Part shown: positions 24,459 to 36,857 of the stretch, piece by piece
How the letters are laid out: each line of letters starts with the position of its first letter
How positions within the stretch are numbered: position 1 is the first letter of the stretch
Assembly (NCBI GenBank): GCA_002989075.1
Contig: PSQN01000016.1
Coordinates: 2,620,336-2,684,335 of the forward strand
Length of the DNA: 64,000 nt
Origin: Arthonia radiata
Lineage: Eukaryota; Ascomycota; Arthoniomycetes; Arthoniales; Arthoniaceae
Reading direction: 5' to 3'
Position numbers and translations under genes: made by a program
Notes under the pieces: model-generated
What the model was told of the DNA's origin: nothing
Database searches by the model: none
What the model saw: the letters and a program-made list of their open reading frames with translations, nothing else

Positions 24459-27123
24459 ATGAATCGCCCTGGTACGCTCCCAATCCTCTCCCCCTTACCG
24501 CAATCGCGATGAAGCTCGTGCGACTGGATGCCCTCAACAGTCTCGCGGTGATCGCCTTGAATTAGAACCCCTCCGTCGATGCGCTTATCGAGCTTTGCTC
24601 AGCGCTCACTTATCACAATGTTTAGAGCGCGAACTAGCAGAAGGAAGCTCACTGACATCCCAAATGATAGGTCCTGGCCCACAACCCTTGCGCAACATGA
24701 GCAATGTCTTTCAAAATCAACAGAACGCAAATCAACGGCAGCCCACTCTTGCTTCAAGTCGATTACAGAATGGCAAGCTTGGTATGGCAGGATACATAAG
24801 AGCAAGCAACATAGCGCGACAGGCTGATAATACCCAGGAACTGCACCCGGGTGGGGATACGGCGGCATAGGAGCAGCAGGCGCGACCGGTCCTCAAGCAG
24901 GACAGTCGCGACCGAGCGGCTTGTCTAGCTTTGCGCAAACAATTGGGAGTGGACACAGCCAGACACCGCTGGACCTATCGTAAGTGCATTTTATTGTTTT
25001 AGACAGCAGAATTTGGGCTCAAGGGTTGCTGCAAACGCCTGGCCATCATCACAAAGACGGTATTCATACATCTGACGACATCTCCGACGACCATGCGCAA
25101 ATATCTCCCAGAAAGAGAACAGAACCAAGGCTCGTCAAGCCGTCGAGGCCCTTCGCTGGGAGACTACTGGCGCAACACAGGGGGAACACAGCGCATGAGA
25201 AAGCGAGAGCGAAGAACACAATCGAGCACTGAGAACGGCGAATCCGGCGTGTATCAGACTCCATCTGAATCAGAGAGACCCTCGACACAGTCAGCATTAG
25301 ATGATTCAGCCGGGACACAAGAAACTGAGATACCCGGCCCAAAGAGTGATGCCAATGTTCCGTTCTCAGTCTCAAAGCCCAACAGCCCTCGCGAAGCTGA
25401 TGCACAAACACCGGTGCAGAATGAACAAGTTGTGGAAGCCGGCAATGAGCGCATGGATTCAAGCCCAAAAAGTGATGCCAATGTCCCATCATCAGCCTCA
25501 AAGGTCAACAGACCTGGCGAACCCAATGCAAAAACGCCGGTGCAAGATGAGCAAGCGGTGGAAACCATCAATGAGCGCATGCAATCAAGCCCGACTGTGC
25601 ACGCCAGCGCCGAGCAAGCCCAAAAGCCCGTGGAGAAAGTTGAAATTGATGAAGTAGCGACAGAATGTGAGGCTAACCATACCGTGCCTACAGTGACTTC
25701 CCCACGTTATCCGGCGCCCCACAATCACAACAAGCCAACGCATCTCAGAATGTATGGGGAGGGTCTAGCGTAAGAGGCGCTAATAACAACCCTCCAGTGC
25801 AGCGACCCTCCGGCCCAGGAACACAAACAAGCTTGCAAGCGCCCGGTCCGCCACCCTCACAACAGGTCGGAGCCGAGTCAGAACGTGCTCAAACTTTTCA
25901 TGGCCTGCATTCAAATATCGAGGAATTTCGGCAAGAGGAGCAGGGCGGTATTGGCAGAGATGCGCGAAGAACAGGTCAGCAAGGCACCCCAGACGACTTC
26001 CCACCTCTGGGAGGGTTAGGCCGCGCTGACTTCAGACAAGGCGCTGGCCAGCCGTCGCACCTTCAAGGACTCGGCTCAGGATTCTTATCTGGCCAAATGC
26101 AGAGAAATGGTGGATTCGGTACAGACTCTCACCCAGATGGACTTGCACCTAACAGCGGAGGCGGTCGAGTTATGTCACCTTCCGATGTCCCTTCCGGTGG
26201 TAAGTTCTTCCCAGTGTTGCCCATATGAGATCAATTGCTCACCAGAAACAAAGCATCACGATCACCTCTAGACGGACAAGACGACCTCAACGAAGGTCAA
26301 CGACATCCATCTGGTGTAAGTAACAGCATTCAGCCCTTCACAGTACGATACTAATCGTCATCAGCTCAACGCTCGAATACCGCAATCCAACCCCGACCAA
26401 TTCGATCTTCCACACCGAGGCGCACGGCCACCTAATTCGAACTCCGACTTCTCCTCACGCTATCCTTCTGGCGAACAACCACCACAACAACAACCCTCAC
26501 ACCCCTCAGAACCTCCCAACGGCGCCGTAACGACACCATCCGACGCCCACACAACCAACGGCACCTCCCAAATGACCGACCTCGACCGCTATGGTCTCAA
26601 CGGCTTCATGGCTGAAATCCGCGGCCTGTCACCCGACCACAGCTCCATCCGCCTCGGCATGGATCTCAATCAGCTTGGTCTCGACCTGAATCGCCAAGGG
26701 CCTCTCCACGTCGATTGGGCCGGCCCTTTCGCCGATCAGAATACCCGCCCCGTCGTCCCCGACTTCCGACTCCCACCCGCCTATACCGTGCAAAACGTGC
26801 CGCCCTTAGAGGAGAAGCTCCCCAGCTTCAGTGACGAGACCCTCTTCACGATCTTCTACAGCATGCCCCGAGACAAGGCGCAGGAATTGGCGGCGAGCGA
26901 ACTATACAACCGGGACTGGCGGTGGCATAAGCGCATGCAGCAGTGGATGATGAAGGCGAAGGAGTTTGGCGAGCCGCAGCAGCTTCCAAGTCAGAAGGAG
27001 GAGCGGGGGTGGTATTACTTCTTCGATCTGCAAAATTGGAAGAGGGAGCGAAAGGAGTTCATACTGAACTATGAGCACCTCTATCATCCGAGTGAGAGGT
27101 TGGGGATTGGTGGAACGTTGTAG
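24459..27123 (+). CDS. CCR4-NOT complex subunit Not2 (CNOT2 homologue)
   Basis: Exons 24459-24471, 24671-24781, 24838-24979, 25694-26199, 26272-26315 and 26365-27123 give 524 residues. Not2 is a scaffold of the CCR4-NOT deadenylation and transcription-control complex. The N-terminus (MNRPG..PQPLRNMSN) and Gly/Gln-rich region match fungal Not2. LDLSDFPTLSGAP is formed across the third intron. The middle has NIEEFRQE and DDFPPLGGLGR. The C-terminal NOT2/3/5 box starts near PAYTVQNVPPLEEKLPSFSD, with TLFTIFYSMPRDKAQELAA, LYNRDWRWHK and WYYFFDLQNWKRERKEFIL. Intron 1 is 199 nt and intron 3 (24980-25693) is 714 nt, against 49-72 nt for most others here. Intron 3 contains a long open frame; see the separate entry. 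Confidence 0.93.
24980..25693 (+). other. 714-nt NOT2 intron with coding-like frame and tandem repeat
   Basis: The intron joins GAC CTA TC to T GAC TTC and so restores the conserved LDLSDFPTL. It holds an open frame from 25093 that continues past the splice acceptor to 25773. That frame includes two tandem 126-nt units (25345-25470 and 25471-25596), each 42 codons beginning SDANVP. The two units are 28/42 identical as protein. Because 126 is a multiple of three, all plus frames tend to stay open. Donor sites in that frame before the final acceptor are all phase 0, giving an immediate TGA if spliced to the Not2 exon, so an in-frame protein insert looks unlikely. A nested gene or an expanded intron repeat are the alternatives. 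Confidence 0.55.
25345..25596 (+). repeat. Two-copy tandem repeat, 126-nt unit
   Basis: Unit 1 starts AGTGATGCCAATGTTCC at 25345; unit 2 starts AGTGATGCCAATGTCCC at 25471. Both share blocks such as CAATGAGCGCATG near the end. It lies wholly inside the long NOT2 intron. Confidence 0.85.
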
Positions 27124-27357: not shown

Positions 27358-29474
27358 TTAACGACTCCTCGTCTTCCCGATACCCCTCTTCCCACTGAAC
27401 AGATGCTTCGGCATACTAGCGGTCGTATGCCGATCCGCCTCTCCCTGCCTCGCCATCCGATTCATCTTCTTTTGGCTCAATCTCGCCAAACGCTCCGCCT
27501 CCGTCCTCCGCTCCTCGTTCGCGCCCACGCCGTCCTTCAGCCTATTTGTCGTACTCTGACTCCTCGCCCGGCTCTTGCTGCGCGCCACCAGCGCCGCGCG
27601 CGCGTTCTCCGACGGCGTCCGGCTATCAATGTCCATCGCGTCCACACCGTGTCCGAGCAACGAAATGCTCCGGCCTCTCGACACCGAACCCTTCTCACCT
27701 GCTCTCGACTGCGAACGCACGCGCTCAGACGCCGCAGTAGCGTCATGCCCAAGCGACTCGAGGTGCTCTTGCATCGCGTCCAGCGTCTTCGGGCGTGCCT
27801 TGGACCGTGGAATCACCGCGCGATTCTTCAGGCTCTTCCGCTGCTTCGCCTCATTCCTAATCAGCACTCGCTTCTCCCGAATCAACTCCGCTTTCCGTGC
27901 GATCTCCCGATCCCCCGCCGTCTCCTCCTCCGACTCCTGCACCTCTTCGTAGAATCCCTGCTTCGTCAGCTTCTCCTCCTCGTCCTCCAGCGCCACCAGC
28001 TTCTTCGCGATATCCGGGTCGATGAAGTCCGCCACGTTCCGCCCGTTCACGAATTCGGGCATCTTGTCGTGGCGCTCTTCGAGGGGGAGGTCGTAGTTCT
28101 TGGCGTGGTCGAAGGAGTAGACGCCAGGGCCGCCGTTTTCGGCCTCGATGTCGCGCTCGAGGACGCGACGGGAGGGGTCCGCGGGGTCGTACTTCTTGCG
28201 CGCGGGGTCGGAGACCTGCGGTGGGATGTAGGGTTCGCGGGTGATGCCGCCCATGGGGTGGGCGACGTGGATGCGGCGGAGGAGGTCCGCGAGACGACCG
28301 CTGGGCTCACCGGTGGAGGTGTGCGAGGCGGAGGAGAGCTTCTGGGCGTTGCGTGCGGCGAGGAGGCGGTCGCAGATGGCGCTGCGGGCGGCCATGACGT
28401 TTTCGGTGGTGGTGCAGGAGAGCTCGAGGAGCTCGACGTTGGCTTGAGAAAGGAGGGCGGAGAGGGATTGCTGGTTTTCTGGGTCGAGGTCGGAGGGTTT
28501 GGCGAGGTCGATCTTGTTGATGACGATGAAGGTGAGCTTGTTGGCGAAGAGGGGCTTGATGCTGTTGAAGAGGGCGATTTGCTGGGTGACGGGGTAGCCG
28601 CACTGCTCGGAGAGGTCCATGAAGTAGCAGACGGCGCTGCGGAGGTGGGCGATAGCGGTGATGGACTGCATTTCAATGGTGTTCATTTCTTCGAGAGGGT
28701 GGTCGAGAATACCGGGGGTGTCGATGGCTTGGAAGCGAAGCATCTTGTAGTCAAAATGGCCGACGAAGAGGGACTTGGTGGTGAAGGCGTATGGCTGCAC
28801 GTCCACATCTGCGCGAGAGATGGATCGCAAGAAGCTGGACTTGCCAACGTTGGGGTATCCGCAGATGAGGAGTGTTCGAGTGTTCGGGTCTATGGATGGC
28901 AGACGCCCAAGATGCTGGCGCACTTGTTCGAGATACGCAAGTGGATCGCGTAGTCGCTTGCAGATGGTTGCCATACGCCCGAGAGCAGCGCGTTTGAGGG
29001 ATTTGCATTGGAACAGCGATTGTCCATATTTGATCAGACGGACGTAGTCGCGCGAGACGGTCTCGATGAGGTGCTTTGCCGTGCTGACTTGTCCGAGAGC
29101 GATCTTGAAATGGTCGCGATCGTAAAGCGTGTTGAGTAAATCACGGTCTGTAGAGCAATGATGTGTTAGCGTCTATGTACACTGTGGCTTTGACAGTCAT
29201 GACCTTGCGTCTCTGTACAAGGTTGAGGCGCTCGTAACGTACGGAAAGGGTGTATGTCCTCTAATCGTGGGAATCCTTCTAAAATCGAGTTGAACTTCTC
29301 AACAAATGTCTCTGAAGTGTATTTGACCTTGCGCATGTAAAATGATCGAATGCGCGTAATCTTGAAACCATTTCGGATCTGAGTGGGAAGCTTGCGCTGT
29401 GTCCTAGACAGGACGATGTCGATGAACTCTTGCGAGGTCGGCACCGGTGGGCAGTCTTTCCATGTTGTTTTCAT
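27358..29474 (-). CDS. NOG1: Nucleolar GTP-binding protein Nog1
   Basis: Two exons (29474-29243 and 29147-27358) give 673 residues. Nog1 is an essential GTPase that joins pre-60S ribosomal particles in the nucleolus and inserts its C-terminal tail into the peptide exit tunnel. The start [17 protein letters not shown] matches the conserved N-terminus. GTPase motifs are seen: G1 GYPNVGKS (about 173-180), G3 DTPG, and G4 [24 protein letters not shown] and [18 protein letters not shown] are diagnostic. The basic C-terminus ends [16 protein letters not shown]. The start was chosen because upstream codons in the same frame have no conservation. Confidence 0.96.
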
Positions 29475-30633
29475 CTCGGCTGCAATGCCGAAGTCCGACC
29501 TTGCTACGACTGAGTGCAAACTTGCAGATTGACAACGCCTCCACAATTTTCCTGGCGCTCAATCGATATGCGGACATTACCTCGCAATGTCCGTTGCGCT
29601 TAGTCAGCATACGCCAACAGATACGTGTCCGTGCGTTCTTCTACTCATTGAACATCGAGAGAGCAACGACTCAGTACAATCGCTTTCTTTGCTACTAATA
29701 ATAGCCCGTCATCTTGTGTGTACGCTAACACCCATATACAGAAGTTCTATAACCCGATCCTTGCCTCGCTTAGCCACGACGTTTGTAGTAGGCCTTACGT
29801 CTGCTGCCTTTGGTCATACCTAGATGCGTGGACCACAAAATAGTATTATCAGTATTCAACACTATCTGCGCTAAGAAACGAGATCTCTATGAGGTTATGA
29901 CCGTTGATCAAGATACGGAAACACTGGTAATCAAGCATATAGTCTACTTCAACGTCCTCCAGGTCCGCCAGCTAAGTATAGCTGCTACTAATTACACTTG
30001 GCTATGATGAACGTTTTCAAAAGATTCTGCCGTTCGGCGCGTTGTTCATAAATCACTTACTCTGACAGTCCATTTTCGATAAGCTGGTAGCGCTCTAGGC
30101 TCATTTCTTTCTCTTGGGAACTCACAAAATTATACCCGTGACGAGGGACGAGAAGCTGAAAAACGGTGGTCTTCTGTCGCAAAAGAGTCTGCAAGATGCT
30201 GAAATAGTGCCTTATACTGTTGGCACCTCAAAGAGTTTCACGTAGTAGATTTTTGACCCAGACAACACATACAACGCAAGAGATATTGATCAATAGATCC
30301 ATCAGAATTGGTGGATGAAGTTCAAATACATTAGCAAGACTATATTCAGACCGTGACAGCCACTGTGTCTTGGTCCGTCTGCTCTTGCGGCAATGTCTGA
30401 GCACGACGGTTTTGTTAGCTCGTAGCATACAGATTCTTCATTGAATCGTTAACAGTTTATACAGTCAGCTCCGTAAGATCGTCAACATGACACAATTGCC
30501 ATCACGCTCAGACATGTGCTTTGACAATGCTTGCACAAGCGCTTACATAGTTAGGTACACCGCTGCCTTCTTCGCCAGCTCTCGAGAGCTTCAAAACAGC
30601 ATCTCGAATGATTGAACTCCCGACACAAGCACC
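29475..30633. other. Divergent intergenic region, relatively AT-rich
   Basis: 1.16 kb between NOG1 (-) and the PAM2/RGG gene (+). It holds both promoters. The segment at about 29700-30500 is AT-richer than its surroundings, with TA-rich words and short frames. It could be a decayed (RIP-mutated) element, but no transposon domain can be read. Confidence 0.35.
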
Positions 30634-32535
30634 ATGACTAGGACCTACGAAACATTGAGAGCGCGTTCCCCTCAAGCCTCTCTAGAACAAAGTTCCAACG
30701 CGGAAAGACACAACGTGGCCGTTGGAGAAAGGACGTCCGCACTGAACGATGGTACTAATGACAGACACAGAGATGGAATTGACGTACCTACGCCATACGA
30801 TGAGGTGCACAGGGTCTTCAAAGATCAGCAACCTCTGCGATTCAGTCAAGATATGTCTCGCGCTGAACCTGATGGGGTTGACAAAGGCTCTCTGAGAGAA
30901 GTACCGCGTGTCCATGTCGAAGGCGAAATCGAAGGTGAAATTCCCGGACTGGGTCTCGGAGATATGGTCGCACGGGCTGCTCAAGCATCTAAAGGTCAGG
31001 TTGCGGCTCCACGCCCCACGCCGAAGAGTGCCGCTATATACAAAGTCACATCTGCGCTAAGGACTGGGAAAGGCGCGTCCGATCCTGCCGCATGGGAGAG
31101 GTCGCCATGCCTTCCCATGGGCGATTTGTCTGCGCTACTTGCCCGCGCACACCATAGACCAACACCCTCCATTCAAGCAAACCGTCTTCTAACGGAAGAA
31201 GCCGTCCATCTTCATACTGTGTCGAGTCTGAACAAGCACATTGCAAGCAAGAAGACCTCTCCATTCGCTAGCCATCAATCTATCATTTCGTGGCTTGAAG
31301 AGACAGCGGACAGCGTTTACAGAGCATCTCCACCGCCTGCTGGGGATGCAACTCTCGCTTGTAAAAACGAGGAGCTTCACAAGATGTCTGCGCCTGTCGA
31401 TGCTCGTTCTCAGGACGACGTCCACCGAACGCCAGCACCAGGCACTCCGCGCAACTCGCAAGCGACGGCCTCGACTTCAAGCACACGTCGCACATTCAAC
31501 GTTCAAGATCAACCATCACGCAACGGTCATACCGCAGACGAGCCTTATCACTCGCGTGCACCGGACATTCCCTTCAACCCGCAAGCAAGTCACTTCTCCC
31601 CGCGTCCAATGCTGATTTCCGATCTGCCGAGCCAACCGGATCACAATGATTACCCTGAACCCAGCGATGCCCAGTCTCTAGAACCGAGTTGTTCCTTCAA
31701 TCCGCTTGCAAGCCACTTTTCTCCAGGCCCACGCCATATTCCGGGACTTCCAGATCAATCGTATTATGACACTTACCCTGAAAAGTATTATTCAACAGAT
31801 CCGGTACCCGGCCACACGTTGGACCCGCATGCAAGCCATTTCTCCCCGCGCGGGAGCTCGACGTCCAAAGCCTTAGATCAGTCTTTCGGCTCTGAGGATG
31901 CTGCTCTCAACCAGCAGAGCTGCGAATCTTCGCTACTAAAACAGAAAGACGGCTCATGGCTATCAGCTACAAACACATACCCGAATTTCGTGCCGTCTGG
32001 TCCCAATGTCCCAGGCAACAGCCATGAGCTGATTGAATATAGTCATTCGATATATTCAGCTTGGACCAATAGAAAAAAATTGATTGCAATTGGCGAGACA
32101 CCAGCGCCGCTTAAAGTCGAGACTGAGGAGGACGAGATGCCGGATTGGATGCAGCGCCGATGGGAAGAAGAGGAGGGCCGGGAAGCGGAGCAGGAGCGTC
32201 AACGCCAGGAGAATAATCCGCTTTTGCAGGCTCAACGAGACAGCCTGAAGCAGTCTCACGCTCAGAAGAACAATCAGCGACTGATCAACAAAGGACAGAA
32301 AGTCAGCTCTGCGCCACCCAAATTCTGGACTGGAGTTGCCGTGGATCAGAACGCAATTGAGGCGGCAAAAGAAGTGGAACGTGAGGCGAGGAGGATGAGG
32401 GAGTTGTCTACACGTGGCGGTCGCGCGATTGGATCTACAACGTATCGTGGAGGACGCGGAAATCAAGGCGGTGGACGACGTGGTCTCGGCAATGGAAGAG
32501 GCGGCCAAGGTTCTGGTCGTAGAAAGGGCAGTTAG
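30634..32535 (+). CDS. Disordered protein with three PAM2-like motifs and a C-terminal RGG tail
   Basis: A single exon of 633 residues with no folded domain recognised. Three motifs fit the PAM2 pattern (L/F-N-x-x-A-x-x-F-x-P) that binds the MLLE domain of poly(A)-binding protein: FNPQASHFSP (314-323), FNPLASHFSP (355-364) and LDPHASHFSP (396-405). They are exactly 41 residues apart and share flanks (for example LP.Q....YPE), so they are tandem repeats. A charged helical segment (EEDEMPDWMQRRWEEEEG onwards) and the block PPKFWTGVAVDQNAIEAAKE follow. The tail from about residue 597 is rich in RGG/GRG, as in RNA-binding proteins. I infer a cytoplasmic mRNA-associated partner of Pab1. The gene is upstream of SMC1 on the same strand. 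The gene is real; the function is inferred. Confidence 0.8.
   Translation: MTRTYETLRARSPQASLEQSSNAERHNVAVGERTSALNDGTNDRHRDGIDVPTPYDEVHRVFKDQQPLRFSQDMSRAEPDGVDKGSLREVPRVHVEGEIEGEIPGLGLGDMVARAAQASKGQVAAPRPTPKSAAIYKVTSALRTGKGASDPAAWERSPCLPMGDLSALLARAHHRPTPSIQANRLLTEEAVHLHTVSSLNKHIASKKTSPFASHQSIISWLEETADSVYRASPPPAGDATLACKNEELHKMSAPVDARSQDDVHRTPAPGTPRNSQATASTSSTRRTFNVQDQPSRNGHTADEPYHSRAPDIPFNPQASHFSPRPMLISDLPSQPDHNDYPEPSDAQSLEPSCSFNPLASHFSPGPRHIPGLPDQSYYDTYPEKYYSTDPVPGHTLDPHASHFSPRGSSTSKALDQSFGSEDAALNQQSCESSLLKQKDGSWLSATNTYPNFVPSGPNVPGNSHELIEYSHSIYSAWTNRKKLIAIGETPAPLKVETEEDEMPDWMQRRWEEEEGREAEQERQRQENNPLLQAQRDSLKQSHAQKNNQRLINKGQKVSSAPPKFWTGVAVDQNAIEAAKEVEREARRMRELSTRGGRAIGSTTYRGGRGNQGGGRRGLGNGRGGQGSGRRKGS
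31561..31851 (+). repeat. Coding tandem repeat (41-codon unit, three PAM2-like copies)
   Basis: The three copies have Asn/Asn/Asp at residues 315, 356 and 397, a period of 41 codons (123 nt). The core (N/D)P.ASHFSP is fully kept while the linkers have diverged, which suggests selection on the core. Confidence 0.8.
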
Positions 32536-33017: not shown

Positions 33018-36000
33018 ATGGGAAAATTAGCTCGGCTTGAACTGTACAACTTCAAATCATACAAAGGCCATCATGCTCTCCTCTTCGCCGACGCGAACTT
33101 CACGTCCATCATTGGCCCAAATGGGTCTGGCAAATCCAATTCCATGGACGCCATCTCATTTGTGCTGGGCATCAAGTCTTCACATTTGCGCTCGACGCAT
33201 CTTCGGGACCTGATCTACCGCGGGCGCATCCTAAAGACATCAAAAGTGAACGCAGACGGCAGCGCCGAAGCGCCTCAGCAGAACGGTGTCAACGGCGTGC
33301 ATGTGGATGGTGATCACGCCGAAGAAGATGACGATGAGGCTGACACCCAGAGTCAACGTCAAGATGCCACAACCGCCTGGGTCAAAGCAGTTTATGAGGA
33401 TGATGCAGGAGAAGAGCAACATTGGAAGCGAACCATTACCAGCTCGGGCCAGAGCGAATACCGCATCAACAACCGCATTGTCACCGCCAAGGAGTACAAT
33501 GAGGTTCTTGAGGCAGAGAATATTTTAATCAAAGCGCGCAACTTCCTGGTCTTTCAGGGCGATGTTGAGGCGATTGCCTCGCAAACACCAAAAGAATTGA
33601 CGCGTCTTGTAGAGCAAATCTCGGGCAGTCTCGATTACAAAGGCGAGTACGACCGCTTAGAGGAGGAGAAAGAGAAGGCAAATGACGACCAGCACTTCAA
33701 GTCCATGCAGCGTAGAGGGATCAACGCCGAGATCAAGACCTATGGCGAGCAAAAGAAAGAGGCAGACGACTACAATAAGAAGCAAGACGAGAGGGACGAT
33801 GCTGTAGTCACCCATGTGTTATGGAAGCTGTACCATTTTCAGCGCGTCATGGAAGAATCTGGTCAAGAAATACAGCGTCATCAAGAAGAGCTGAAGGAGT
33901 ACAAACGAGGCATACAAAAGTATGAAGGCAGGCTAGAAGAGGCGAAGAAAGATCAAAGTAAAGCTCACAAAGAGCTGCAGAAGAGCGAACGTTCGATCAG
34001 CAACACAGAGAAGAGAATCGATGACAAGATGCACGACCAAGTGCCCATCGATCAGAAGATCGAAACATCCAGCAAAGAAATCACAAGTCTTCACAAGCGC
34101 AGGCAGGACGTTTCGAAAGATCGAGACGGTCAGCAAAAGAGTCTCGATCAGCTCAAGAAAAGTTTGAACACTGTCCAGAAAGCCCAGGCCAAGTGGGACG
34201 AGGACTTCAAGAAGCTTGCTGCGTCACAAGGCAAACAATTGAGCGACGCTGACGTACAGGAGTACAATCGTCTCAGGGTCGACGTCAACAAGCGTGCGGC
34301 GACCTCACAGATCAAGGTCGACAACTTAACGCGCCAGCGCAAGACTGACGAGGAGACTGTTACGAACCTCAAGGCTACTGTTGATGACTCCTCAAAGCAA
34401 GCTGAGAGACTTACGGCAGAACTTGCTGACATACAGGAGCGTCGAAACGATGCTTCGACCAAAGTCAAGGAGATGTCTTCGCAAGTTGATCATAAGAAGA
34501 AAGAGATCAACGCAATGACTTCTGAGCGCCTCAAACTGTCGCAGAAGCAGACTGAGCTGGACGAGAAGCTTCAGAAAGTCGTTGAGAAGCTGCTCGAGGG
34601 TAGTGATAGCCGCCGCCAATCTCGCAAAGAATTACAGCAGAAGGAACTCATGTCGACGTTGAAGCGTATCTTTCCCGGTGTTCGAGGCCGCGTGCATGAG
34701 TTGTGCAAGCCGAAGCAGAGAAAGTATGAAACGGCTGTCAGCACTGTGCTTGGACGTAACTTTGATACTATCGTGGTCGACAACGAGAAGACCGCGAAGG
34801 ACTGCATCCAGTATTTGCGTGATCAACGAGTCGGTCGCGCTGACTTCATACCTCTTGACACCATCCAAGTCAAGGGTGTCAATTCGAATCTCAAAGGCAT
34901 GCACAAGAACATGCGTTTGGCTGTTGACACAATCGACTATGATAGCAGTGTTGAGCGAGCAATGCTGTCAGCTTGTGGCAACGCTATGGTATGCGACGAT
35001 CTGCAGACGGCCAAATACCTCTGTTACGAGAAGAACATCGAAGCAAAGGCTGTCACTTTGGATGGGACTGTCATTCACAAGGCCGGTTTGATGACTGGAG
35101 GTCGTGGGCCTCAGGACCGTAACAGTCGTAAGTGGGACGATACTGAGATAGACAACCTGACGAAGTTGAAGGACAACTTGTTAGCTCAGATTCAAGCTCT
35201 TCCCAAGGACCGAAAGGCTGTCACTGACGAGGAAGCTTTACGTGGCGAGCTAATCGGCCTGGAGCAGCAGATCGCATATGCTCGTGAAGAAGGCAAGGCT
35301 CTCGAGAAAAATGCTGAAAGTAAGAAGAAGGAACTGAAGTTTGTACAATCTCAATTGAAGGATATGAAGCCGAAGTATGATTCTCAAGCTGCTGATCTCG
35401 AGACGCTCAAGCAGCGCATTGAAGAGTCTCAGAGCGAGGTCGGCGAAGTCGAGGACCAAATATTTGCCGCCTTCTGCAAGAAGCATAAGTTCGATAACAT
35501 TCGCACCTATGAAGCGCAGCAAGGCTCCTTGCAGCAGGAAGCGAATGAGAAAAAGCTTCAATTCAGCAAGCAGACAAAGACCCTCGAGCAGCAGATCTCC
35601 TTCGAACAAACACGTTTGCAGGGAACAACCGAACGCCTCAGCAAGCTGGAAGACCAATCCCAGAAGAGCACGGAGTACGTCGCGTCTCTGGAGGAGGAGA
35701 AGTCTGCGATGCAGGCGGAGCTGCAAGAGATCCGCAAAGAGCTCGATGCAGCCAAGTCGAAGGTGTCCGATCTCAAGTCTGCATACGAAGAGAAAGTCTC
35801 GAAAGTCGCTGGTCAGCGACGTGAGCTACAAGAGCGCTCGAAGAAGGTCGACTTTGTCGTGAAAGAGGTCGCCAAGCACGAAGCAGACGTGCAGCGCAAT
35901 GCATCCCAACGCTACGCGCAGCTTCGCAAATGCAAGATCGAGGGCATCAAACTGCCACTAGCTGAAGGCTCAGCATCACTCGACAGTCTCCCCGTCGATG

Positions 36001-36857
36001 AGCTGCTCCAAGGTCAGACCGCTGATGCGTCCGACGACCCCGAAGCAATGGACGTCGACGAAGACCCTGACGCGTCCACCCTCGCACCCAAAGGCGCAAA
36101 AGACTACGGCATCGAAGTAGACTTCACTGACCTGGACGACGACCTCACAGAAGATGACTCGCCCACACAAGAAGACGCCCTGCAGAAAACCATCGCATCC
36201 CTCACCGCTGAGCTCACGCAGCTCAACCCCAACATGCGTGCCATGGACCGGTTGAACGCGGCGCAAGACCGCCTCAAGCAGTCCGACTCCAGCTACCGCG
36301 ACGCGCAGCGTCTGGCCAAGGAAACCAACGACGCCTTCGAAGCTGTGCGTGAAAAGCGCGCAACACTCTTCAAGAAAGCGTTCGATCACATTCATGACGA
36401 AATCAAACCCGTGTACAAAGCCCTCACGTTCTCAGAGCAGGTGCCCATGGGCGGCCAGGCGTACCTCGACAACGAAGCGCAAGACGACAGCAAGCCCTTT
36501 GACGGCGGCCTGCGCTATCACGCCATGCCGCCACTCAAGCGCTTCCGAGACATGGACGCACTGTCAGGCGGTGAGAAGACTATCGCGGCGTTGGCGTTGC
36601 TGTTCGCTATCCACTCATACGCGCCGTCTCCGTTCTTTGTGCTCGATGAAGTGGACGCCGCGCTGGATGTGGCTAACGTCGCCAAGGTGGCGAGGTATCT
36701 GAGAGACCACGCGAGACCCGGTATGCAGTTCGTCGTGATCAGCTTGAAGACGGGGCTGTTCCAGGAGAGTGATGCGTTGGTGGGTGTGCATCGGGATCAA
36801 GTTGCGAACTCGAGTCGATGCGTGACGTTGGATTTGAGGAAGTATCGGCCGAATTAG
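33018..36857 (+). CDS. SMC1: Cohesin subunit Smc1
   Basis: A single exon of 1279 residues. Smc1 pairs with Smc3 in the cohesin ring that holds sister chromatids together. The start MGKLARLELYNFKSYKG matches the family, so the longer upstream frame is not used. Walker A is GPNGSGKS (33-40). The first coiled coil runs from about 240 to 540. The hinge lies near 550-695 and includes VSTVLGRNFDTIVVD, RADFIPLDTI and KAGLMTGG. A second coiled coil follows. The C-terminal head has the ABC signature LSGGEK (from 1182) and Walker B FFVLDEVDAALD. Length and order are as expected. An acidic insertion (HVDGDHAEEDDDEADTQSQ) near residues 96-114 interrupts the N-terminal head, and another near 1010-1050 lies after the second coil. 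Confidence 0.97.
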   Translation: MGKLARLELYNFKSYKGHHALLFADANFTSIIGPNGSGKSNSMDAISFVLGIKSSHLRSTHLRDLIYRGRILKTSKVNADGSAEAPQQNGVNGVHVDGDHAEEDDDEADTQSQRQDATTAWVKAVYEDDAGEEQHWKRTITSSGQSEYRINNRIVTAKEYNEVLEAENILIKARNFLVFQGDVEAIASQTPKELTRLVEQISGSLDYKGEYDRLEEEKEKANDDQHFKSMQRRGINAEIKTYGEQKKEADDYNKKQDERDDAVVTHVLWKLYHFQRVMEESGQEIQRHQEELKEYKRGIQKYEGRLEEAKKDQSKAHKELQKSERSISNTEKRIDDKMHDQVPIDQKIETSSKEITSLHKRRQDVSKDRDGQQKSLDQLKKSLNTVQKAQAKWDEDFKKLAASQGKQLSDADVQEYNRLRVDVNKRAATSQIKVDNLTRQRKTDEETVTNLKATVDDSSKQAERLTAELADIQERRNDASTKVKEMSSQVDHKKKEINAMTSERLKLSQKQTELDEKLQKVVEKLLEGSDSRRQSRKELQQKELMSTLKRIFPGVRGRVHELCKPKQRKYETAVSTVLGRNFDTIVVDNEKTAKDCIQYLRDQRVGRADFIPLDTIQVKGVNSNLKGMHKNMRLAVDTIDYDSSVERAMLSACGNAMVCDDLQTAKYLCYEKNIEAKAVTLDGTVIHKAGLMTGGRGPQDRNSRKWDDTEIDNLTKLKDNLLAQIQALPKDRKAVTDEEALRGELIGLEQQIAYAREEGKALEKNAESKKKELKFVQSQLKDMKPKYDSQAADLETLKQRIEESQSEVGEVEDQIFAAFCKKHKFDNIRTYEAQQGSLQQEANEKKLQFSKQTKTLEQQISFEQTRLQGTTERLSKLEDQSQKSTEYVASLEEEKSAMQAELQEIRKELDAAKSKVSDLKSAYEEKVSKVAGQRRELQERSKKVDFVVKEVAKHEADVQRNASQRYAQLRKCKIEGIKLPLAEGSASLDSLPVDELLQGQTADASDDPEAMDVDEDPDASTLAPKGAKDYGIEVDFTDLDDDLTEDDSPTQEDALQKTIASLTAELTQLNPNMRAMDRLNAAQDRLKQSDSSYRDAQRLAKETNDAFEAVREKRATLFKKAFDHIHDEIKPVYKALTFSEQVPMGGQAYLDNEAQDDSKPFDGGLRYHAMPPLKRFRDMDALSGGEKTIAALALLFAIHSYAPSPFFVLDEVDAALDVANVAKVARYLRDHARPGMQFVVISLKTGLFQESDALVGVHRDQVANSSRCVTLDLRKYRPN

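Follow-up and report, generated by a model that had tools for sequence, protein, structure and literature searches.

Three evenly spaced PAM2-like motifs in a predicted 633-residue protein of Arthonia radiata, a probable ligand of Pab1

The open reading frame and its neighbours

The window analysed here is a stretch of 64,000 nucleotides (C2:2620336-2684335) from a genome of 33.5 Mb in 16 contigs. Its source is a fungus, as judged from the gene content. The protein under study is encoded by an uninterrupted open reading frame (ORF), and the following features define it and its surroundings.

26722-27081, forward strand: NOT2-type domain, a neighbour of the 633-aa ORF
in 27358-28974, reverse strand: NOG1-type GTPase domains, a neighbour of the ORF
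30634..32535, forward strand: uninterrupted ORF of 633 aa plus stop with an ATG start, a gene model from sequence alone
33018-36857, forward strand: SMC1, a neighbour of the ORF

The coordinates agree with the original prediction, in which SMC1 adjoined the ORF and NOT2 was near. In a fungal genome, such a neighbourhood says little about function. The NOG1-type ORF and the 633-aa ORF point in opposite directions, and the 1.66 kb between them (28975-30633) holds no ORF of at least 200 aa and is possibly an upstream region that both share.

A stop codon lies six codons 5' of the ATG, and the open frame spans 639 codons. The codon-usage score was trained on six further ORFs from the window. The score for the whole ORF was highest in its own frame (0.0359, versus -0.0828 to 0.0071 in the other five frames), and 200 nucleotide shuffles of the ORF gave a mean of -0.078 and a maximum of -0.026. 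Within the motif block taken by itself, codon usage fails to separate the frames (0.0103 versus 0.0129 in frame +1). No Pfam family was found in the protein at E up to 10, a PDB sequence search at the same limit returned no match, and a search for paralogues in its own genome returned the ORF itself alone. In bacterial and archaeal contigs, 39 stretches fit the peptide pattern and tblastn gave 0 relatives, a result that is uninformative on fungi.

A tandem array of PAM2-like motifs

The central and C-terminal parts of the protein contain a series of repeat units of 41 residues, a charged stretch and a basic tail, all on the forward strand.

31450..31572, forward strand: unit 0, a probable decayed repeat (aa 273-313) with the core RNSQATASTS, recognised by repeat-scan score
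31573..31695, forward strand: unit 1 (aa 314-354), core FNPQASHFSP (PAM2 core 1, 31573-31602, from aa 314, strict pattern match)
31696..31818, forward strand: unit 2 (aa 355-395), core FNPLASHFSP (PAM2 core 2, 31696-31725, from aa 355, strict pattern match)
31819..31941, forward strand: unit 3 (aa 396-436), core LDPHASHFSP (PAM2 core 3, 31819-31848, from aa 396, strict pattern match), with a linker without recognisable likeness to those of units 1 and 2
32125..32412, forward strand: charged Glu/Gln/Arg-rich stretch (aa 498-593), read from the translation
32413..32532, forward strand: RGG/GRG-rich basic tail (aa 594-633), from motif counts and charge

All three intact cores fit the strict pattern [LF][ND]PxAxxFxP, and successive cores are 41 codons apart in both intervals. 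The ORF translation and these positions thus bear out the earlier claim of three evenly spaced PAM2-like motifs, 41 residues apart. The published PAM2 consensus is given as xxLNxxAxEFxP (PMC4466420). The PAM2 spacing L-N-x-x-A-x-x-F-x-P with a hydrophobic first residue is present in the three matches. Compared with the consensus, Phe takes the place of Leu in two cores, Asp that of Asn in one, and His that of Glu in all three. The last of these changes, which lies directly before the Phe in 3/3 units, counts against the PAM2 reading.

A protein of the same composition is expected to contain 6.5e-5 strict matches, and among 200,000 shuffles of the protein 9 had one match and none had two or more. 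The strict pattern occurs 12 times in the 33.5-Mb genome (9 forward, 3 reverse) at 10 loci, compared with 2 matches (0 forward, 2 reverse) for the reversed control pattern. Three of the 12 fall in the 633-aa ORF, and every other locus holds just one. A chance origin of the motif trio is very unlikely. The relaxed pattern [LF][ND]xxAxxFxP gave 61 genome matches versus 41 in the control, and outside the ORF no two of these lie within 1 kb. Because the relaxed pattern is barely above the control, it is the strict form and the clustering that carry the weight. The Pfam PAM2 model PF07145 gave 2 hits in the genome at E up to 10, and the 633-aa ORF was not among them. PF07145 likewise missed the motifs of ataxin-2 and Pan3 in this genome, so its silence on the ORF says little; the model is an identification aid, not a defining property of PAM2.

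The units differ in how much of their common history can still be read. The linkers of units 1 and 2 are identical at 9 of 31 residues, a value that 1 in 20,000 shuffles equalled, and the linker of unit 3 shares 3 of 31 residues with each of them. Among the 41-aa stretches scanned outside the array, unit 0 was the top match to units 1 and 2 (score 15, next 0), and it lies in exact register one unit length upstream of unit 1. The fraction of 5,000 shuffles that scored as well was 0.0002 against unit 1, 0.032 against unit 2 and 0.116 against unit 3. Unit 0 is therefore a probable repeat whose likeness is clear to unit 1, marginal to unit 2 and not significant to unit 3. Its core keeps only the N, Q and A of FNPQASHFSP; the Phe and the Pro are gone, and the first residue is no longer hydrophobic. 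These comparisons point to tandem duplication into probably four units, of which three have kept the PAM2 core, and the even spacing reflects this old event.

Two other stretches were considered as array members, and neither was accepted. SATNTYPNFVP (aa 444-454) has F-x-P but carries Tyr at the Ala position and Ala at the Leu/Phe position, and it lies 49 codons after motif 3 rather than 41. An older unit before unit 0 (aa 232-272) scored weakly and is not claimed, 21 unit pairs having been compared; the fraction of shuffles as good was 0.012 against unit 0, 0.024 against unit 2 and 0.58 against unit 1.

The cores and linkers have changed in different ways. Seven of ten core residues are identical across units 1-3. 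Between units 1 and 2, silent and replacing codon differences number 5 and 1 in the core and 3 and 22 in the linker (Fisher p 0.0018); between units 2 and 3, they number 4 and 3 in the core and 2 and 28 in the linker (p 0.007). The comparison of units 1 and 3 is not significant (core 2 and 3, linker 2 and 28, p 0.089). Summed over the three pairs, the cores show 11 silent and 7 replacing differences, and the linkers 7 silent and 78 replacing. A caveat of the test is that conservation drew attention to the core in the first place, even though the core positions are those of the published consensus. The conservation of the core points to selection. That the core is kept and the linkers have diverged, mainly by replacement, was correctly foreseen, with a refinement: the linker of unit 3 is indeed unlike the others, but units 1 and 2 still share residues.

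These results bear on the reading that there is no functional protein here, or that the motifs are an artefact of composition or repeats. The lack of any Pfam or PDB match and the unseparated frames of the motif block would be consistent with it. It is nevertheless very improbable, given 633 open codons, a whole-ORF codon score that is best in its own frame, shuffles that never produced two motifs and a core that was kept while the linkers changed.

The last 60 residues include 3 RGG and 5 RG, in accordance with the RGG/GRG-rich C-terminal tail described originally, and the net charge of aa 601-633 is +8. The charged stretch before the tail (aa 498-593) is possibly helical. Order-promoting residues make up 12-36% of each 50-residue block, and the linkers would be flexible, judged from composition alone.

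Pab1 and other PAM2-like loci in the genome

PAM2 motifs bind the MLLE domain of poly(A)-binding protein, and the genome search gave one MLLE match (108 bits), which lies inside Pab1 together with the RRMs. Eighteen PABPC1 residues are named that touch PAM2 peptides or line the pockets (PMC2854688). Fourteen of these 18 contact residues are identical between the Pab1 MLLE groove and human PABPC1, and the changes are F567Y, I588M, L614Y and H617Y. An MLLE domain with an intact groove is thus present in the same organism, in Pab1.

Two known ligands of this domain also carry PAM2-like motifs in the genome. Ataxin-2 has FNANALEFRP followed by an overlapping NPTASTFSP, approximately 1.1 kb downstream of an LsmAD domain. 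The LsmAD domain and the FNANALEFRP stretch probably form one ataxin-2 gene across an intron, and the ORF stretch bearing FNANALEFRP gave no Pfam match on its own. The second PAM2-like stretch of ataxin-2 is located at L039:2-1681 on the minus strand. Overlapping PAM2 pairs have been reported in eRF3 and plant ataxin-2. The first PAM2 position of ataxin-2 is Phe, as in units 1 and 2. In Pan3, LNVDSPSFTP was found by eye upstream of the pseudokinase, with Ser at the Ala position, and the two probably belong to the same gene. Because ataxin-2 and Pan3 also carry PAM2-like motifs, the PAM2-MLLE motif-domain pair is probably in use in Arthonia radiata.

The nine strict sites outside the ORF were inspected by eye. 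Sites L006, L007 and L008 lie in longer open frames, at L012 and L013 the motif follows a Met by two to four residues in a short frame, and L002-L005 show no clear gene. Judged by eye, the open frame that holds LNPSASTFIP at L006 (C1) has a RING-like cysteine pattern, and the one that holds FDPHANQFQP at L007 (C1) has a GATA-like zinc finger. L008:1501-1529 (C1:4360968) reads LNPFASHFQP, which has ASHF in common with the repeats of the ORF, and by eye the reading frames of this locus resemble fragments of C2H2 zinc fingers. L012 and L013 (C3) carry, near position 1501 each, the PAM2-like motifs MSRPLNPNAPLFYP and MSILNPLAPTFVP just after a Met, and these are possibly the first exons of two genes. 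MSRPLNPNAPLFYP passes the Pfam PAM2 cut-off (20.5 bits versus 20). A wider A-x-H-F flavour of the motif has 10 matches in the genome versus 1 in the control, with 3 in the ORF and 1 at L008. Four of the six matches elsewhere were translated, and in all four a stop codon lies no more than about 20 residues upstream.

A further locus, L040:208-6135 on the minus strand (C2:1474000-1482500), encodes a 1975-aa protein that is coiled-coil-like by eye and has tandem repeats. It contains the PAM2-like stretches FNVEAKEFKF and FNVTAPVFKP and, towards the C-terminal end, WGNWRR. None of the Pfam families reaches its cut-off in this protein. Its layout recalls Upa2, the endosomal PAM2 protein of Ustilago, and it may be a counterpart.

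The repeats of the 633-aa protein could also bind some other domain, or they could form an array of phosphorylation sites in which the HFSP that ends each core serves as a minimal Ser-Pro kinase site. ASHFSP is invariant in 3/3 units, whereas of these six residues PAM2 needs just A, F and P by its consensus, and the conserved S and H exceed that need. The protein has 13 SP/TP sites, which include Ser-Pro at aa 322, 363 and 404. Against this reading, the spacing L/F-N/D-P-x-A-x-x-F-x-P as a whole is specific and includes residues outside ASHFSP, and NPTASTFSP of ataxin-2 and LNPFASHFQP of L008 fit a local flavour of PAM2. The phosphorylation and PAM2 readings are also compatible, as phosphorylation could tune MLLE binding. 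Repeats that serve another domain or a kinase in place of Pab1 are considered unlikely.

Relation to known PAM2 proteins and proposed role

The 633-aa protein is not ataxin-2, eRF3, Pan3 or Upa1, because the domains of those proteins were not found in it by Pfam, in each case at E up to 10. Like ataxin-2/Pbp1, it would be a PAM2 ligand of PABP, and no Lsm or LsmAD domain was found in it; the LsmAD match of the genome lies elsewhere. FYVE, RING and ankyrin domains, as in Upa1, were absent, as was the C-terminal EF1A-like GTPase of eRF3, and the Pan3 pseudokinase and zinc finger were not found either; the Pan3 of the genome is located elsewhere. 4E-binding proteins carry a YxxxxL-hydrophobic motif, of which the 633-aa protein has 0 matches. 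The metazoan protein Unkempt binds RNA through zinc fingers. Its disordered effector region is described as containing short motifs, with one PAM2-like PABPC binder (PMC11009413). Only one PAM2 is named in that account, and the likeness to the 633-aa protein is not taken to imply kinship.

More than one PAM2 in a single protein has precedents. eRF3/GSPT1 carries two overlapping PAM2 motifs, and the overlapping pair is reported to bind one PABPC1 (PMC2854688). In contrast, the motifs of the 633-aa protein are 41 residues apart and do not overlap, which could let the protein hold two MLLE domains simultaneously. Pan3 combines PAM2 with RNA contact, has two PAM2 per dimer, and avidity of these weak contacts has been argued for the dimer (PMC4158885). 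Upa2 of Ustilago maydis, which acts in endosomal mRNA transport, has four PAM2 motifs aimed at the MLLE of Pab1 (PMC9249222, PMC12852828), and the presence of several PAM2 motifs in one protein is its likeness to the 633-aa protein. By its description, Upa2 is a scaffold that dimerises and carries a GWW motif at its C-terminus, which sets the 633-aa protein apart: three motifs are intact and one unit is probably decayed, GWW is absent from the translation, and the protein ends in an RGG tail. On the best reading, the protein may work like Upa2, and membership of the Upa2 class is not claimed. Among the matches listed in open-licence literature, titles and starts of abstracts named no ascomycete protein in which PAM2 motifs form a tandem array. 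Multi-PAM2 proteins are already known, and no claim is made that the gene family itself is new.

Taken together, the 633-aa protein is probably a PAM2-type ligand of Pab1 and likely a multivalent adaptor or mRNP-assembly factor. The PAM2 identity put forward in the original prediction is partly supported, by the fit of the motifs, the retained core, the conserved Pab1 MLLE groove and the ataxin-2 and Pan3 motifs. A match to the PAM2 motif can fail: the peptides of both TOB1 and PAN3 are reported not to interact with endogenous PABPC1, although they have the right residues (PMC5118804).

The proposed mechanism begins with a 41-residue unit containing a PAM2 core, which would have been duplicated in tandem, probably into four copies, the first of which lost its core. 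Each kept core would occupy the MLLE of one Pab1, with the core Phe in a shallow pocket and the first residue in a second pocket, as in eRF3 structures (PMC2854688). Pab1 is reported to sit on tails about every 27 nucleotides (PMC6547884). At a spacing of 41 residues, the cores could bind separate Pab1 molecules, and along a row of Pab1 on the poly(A) tail one protein may hold two or three at once. MLLE/PAM2 affinities are reported as weak, 0.2-40 uM (PMC9249222), which makes avidity plausible, and the repeats could matter as weak bonds add up. Further contact with RNA may come from the RGG tail. The likely site of action would be long, Pab1-coated tails, where the protein may compete with ataxin-2 and Pan3 for MLLE. 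Stress-granule assembly by ataxin-2 is reported to go through its PAM2 (PMC11347130), showing what one PAM2 contact can do.

The protein could instead be monovalent in practice, with any one PAM2 sufficing and the copies being redundant leftovers of duplication. Upa2 with all four PAM2 motifs mutated is reported to still support endosomal mRNA transport (PMC9249222), and in an NMD reporter assay two or four copies of the PAIP2 PAM2 gave no gain over a single copy (PMC5118804). Unit 0 also appears to have decayed already. Three cores have nonetheless been retained despite heavy linker divergence, and this alternative is rather unlikely. A more specific form of multivalent binding is a reader of poly(A)-tail length, which would bind tightly only with two or three neighbouring Pab1 and be released upon deadenylation. 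Three PAM2 motifs on 31-residue linkers would then retain the protein on long tails. Pan2-Pan3 reads tails via Pab1-Pab1 interfaces, whereas such a reader would use motifs alone. This role is regarded as doubtful, with a low probability.

If the three cores bind, the 633-aa protein would be a compact natural trivalent ligand of Pab1, built unlike the four-PAM2 Upa2 of Ustilago. Unit 0, probably decayed and in register, would provide a built-in negative control. Redundancy has been reported for Upa2 and for tandem PAIP2 motifs, and the array of Arthonia radiata would allow a clean test of whether the number of PAM2 motifs reads the number of Pab1 molecules on the tail.
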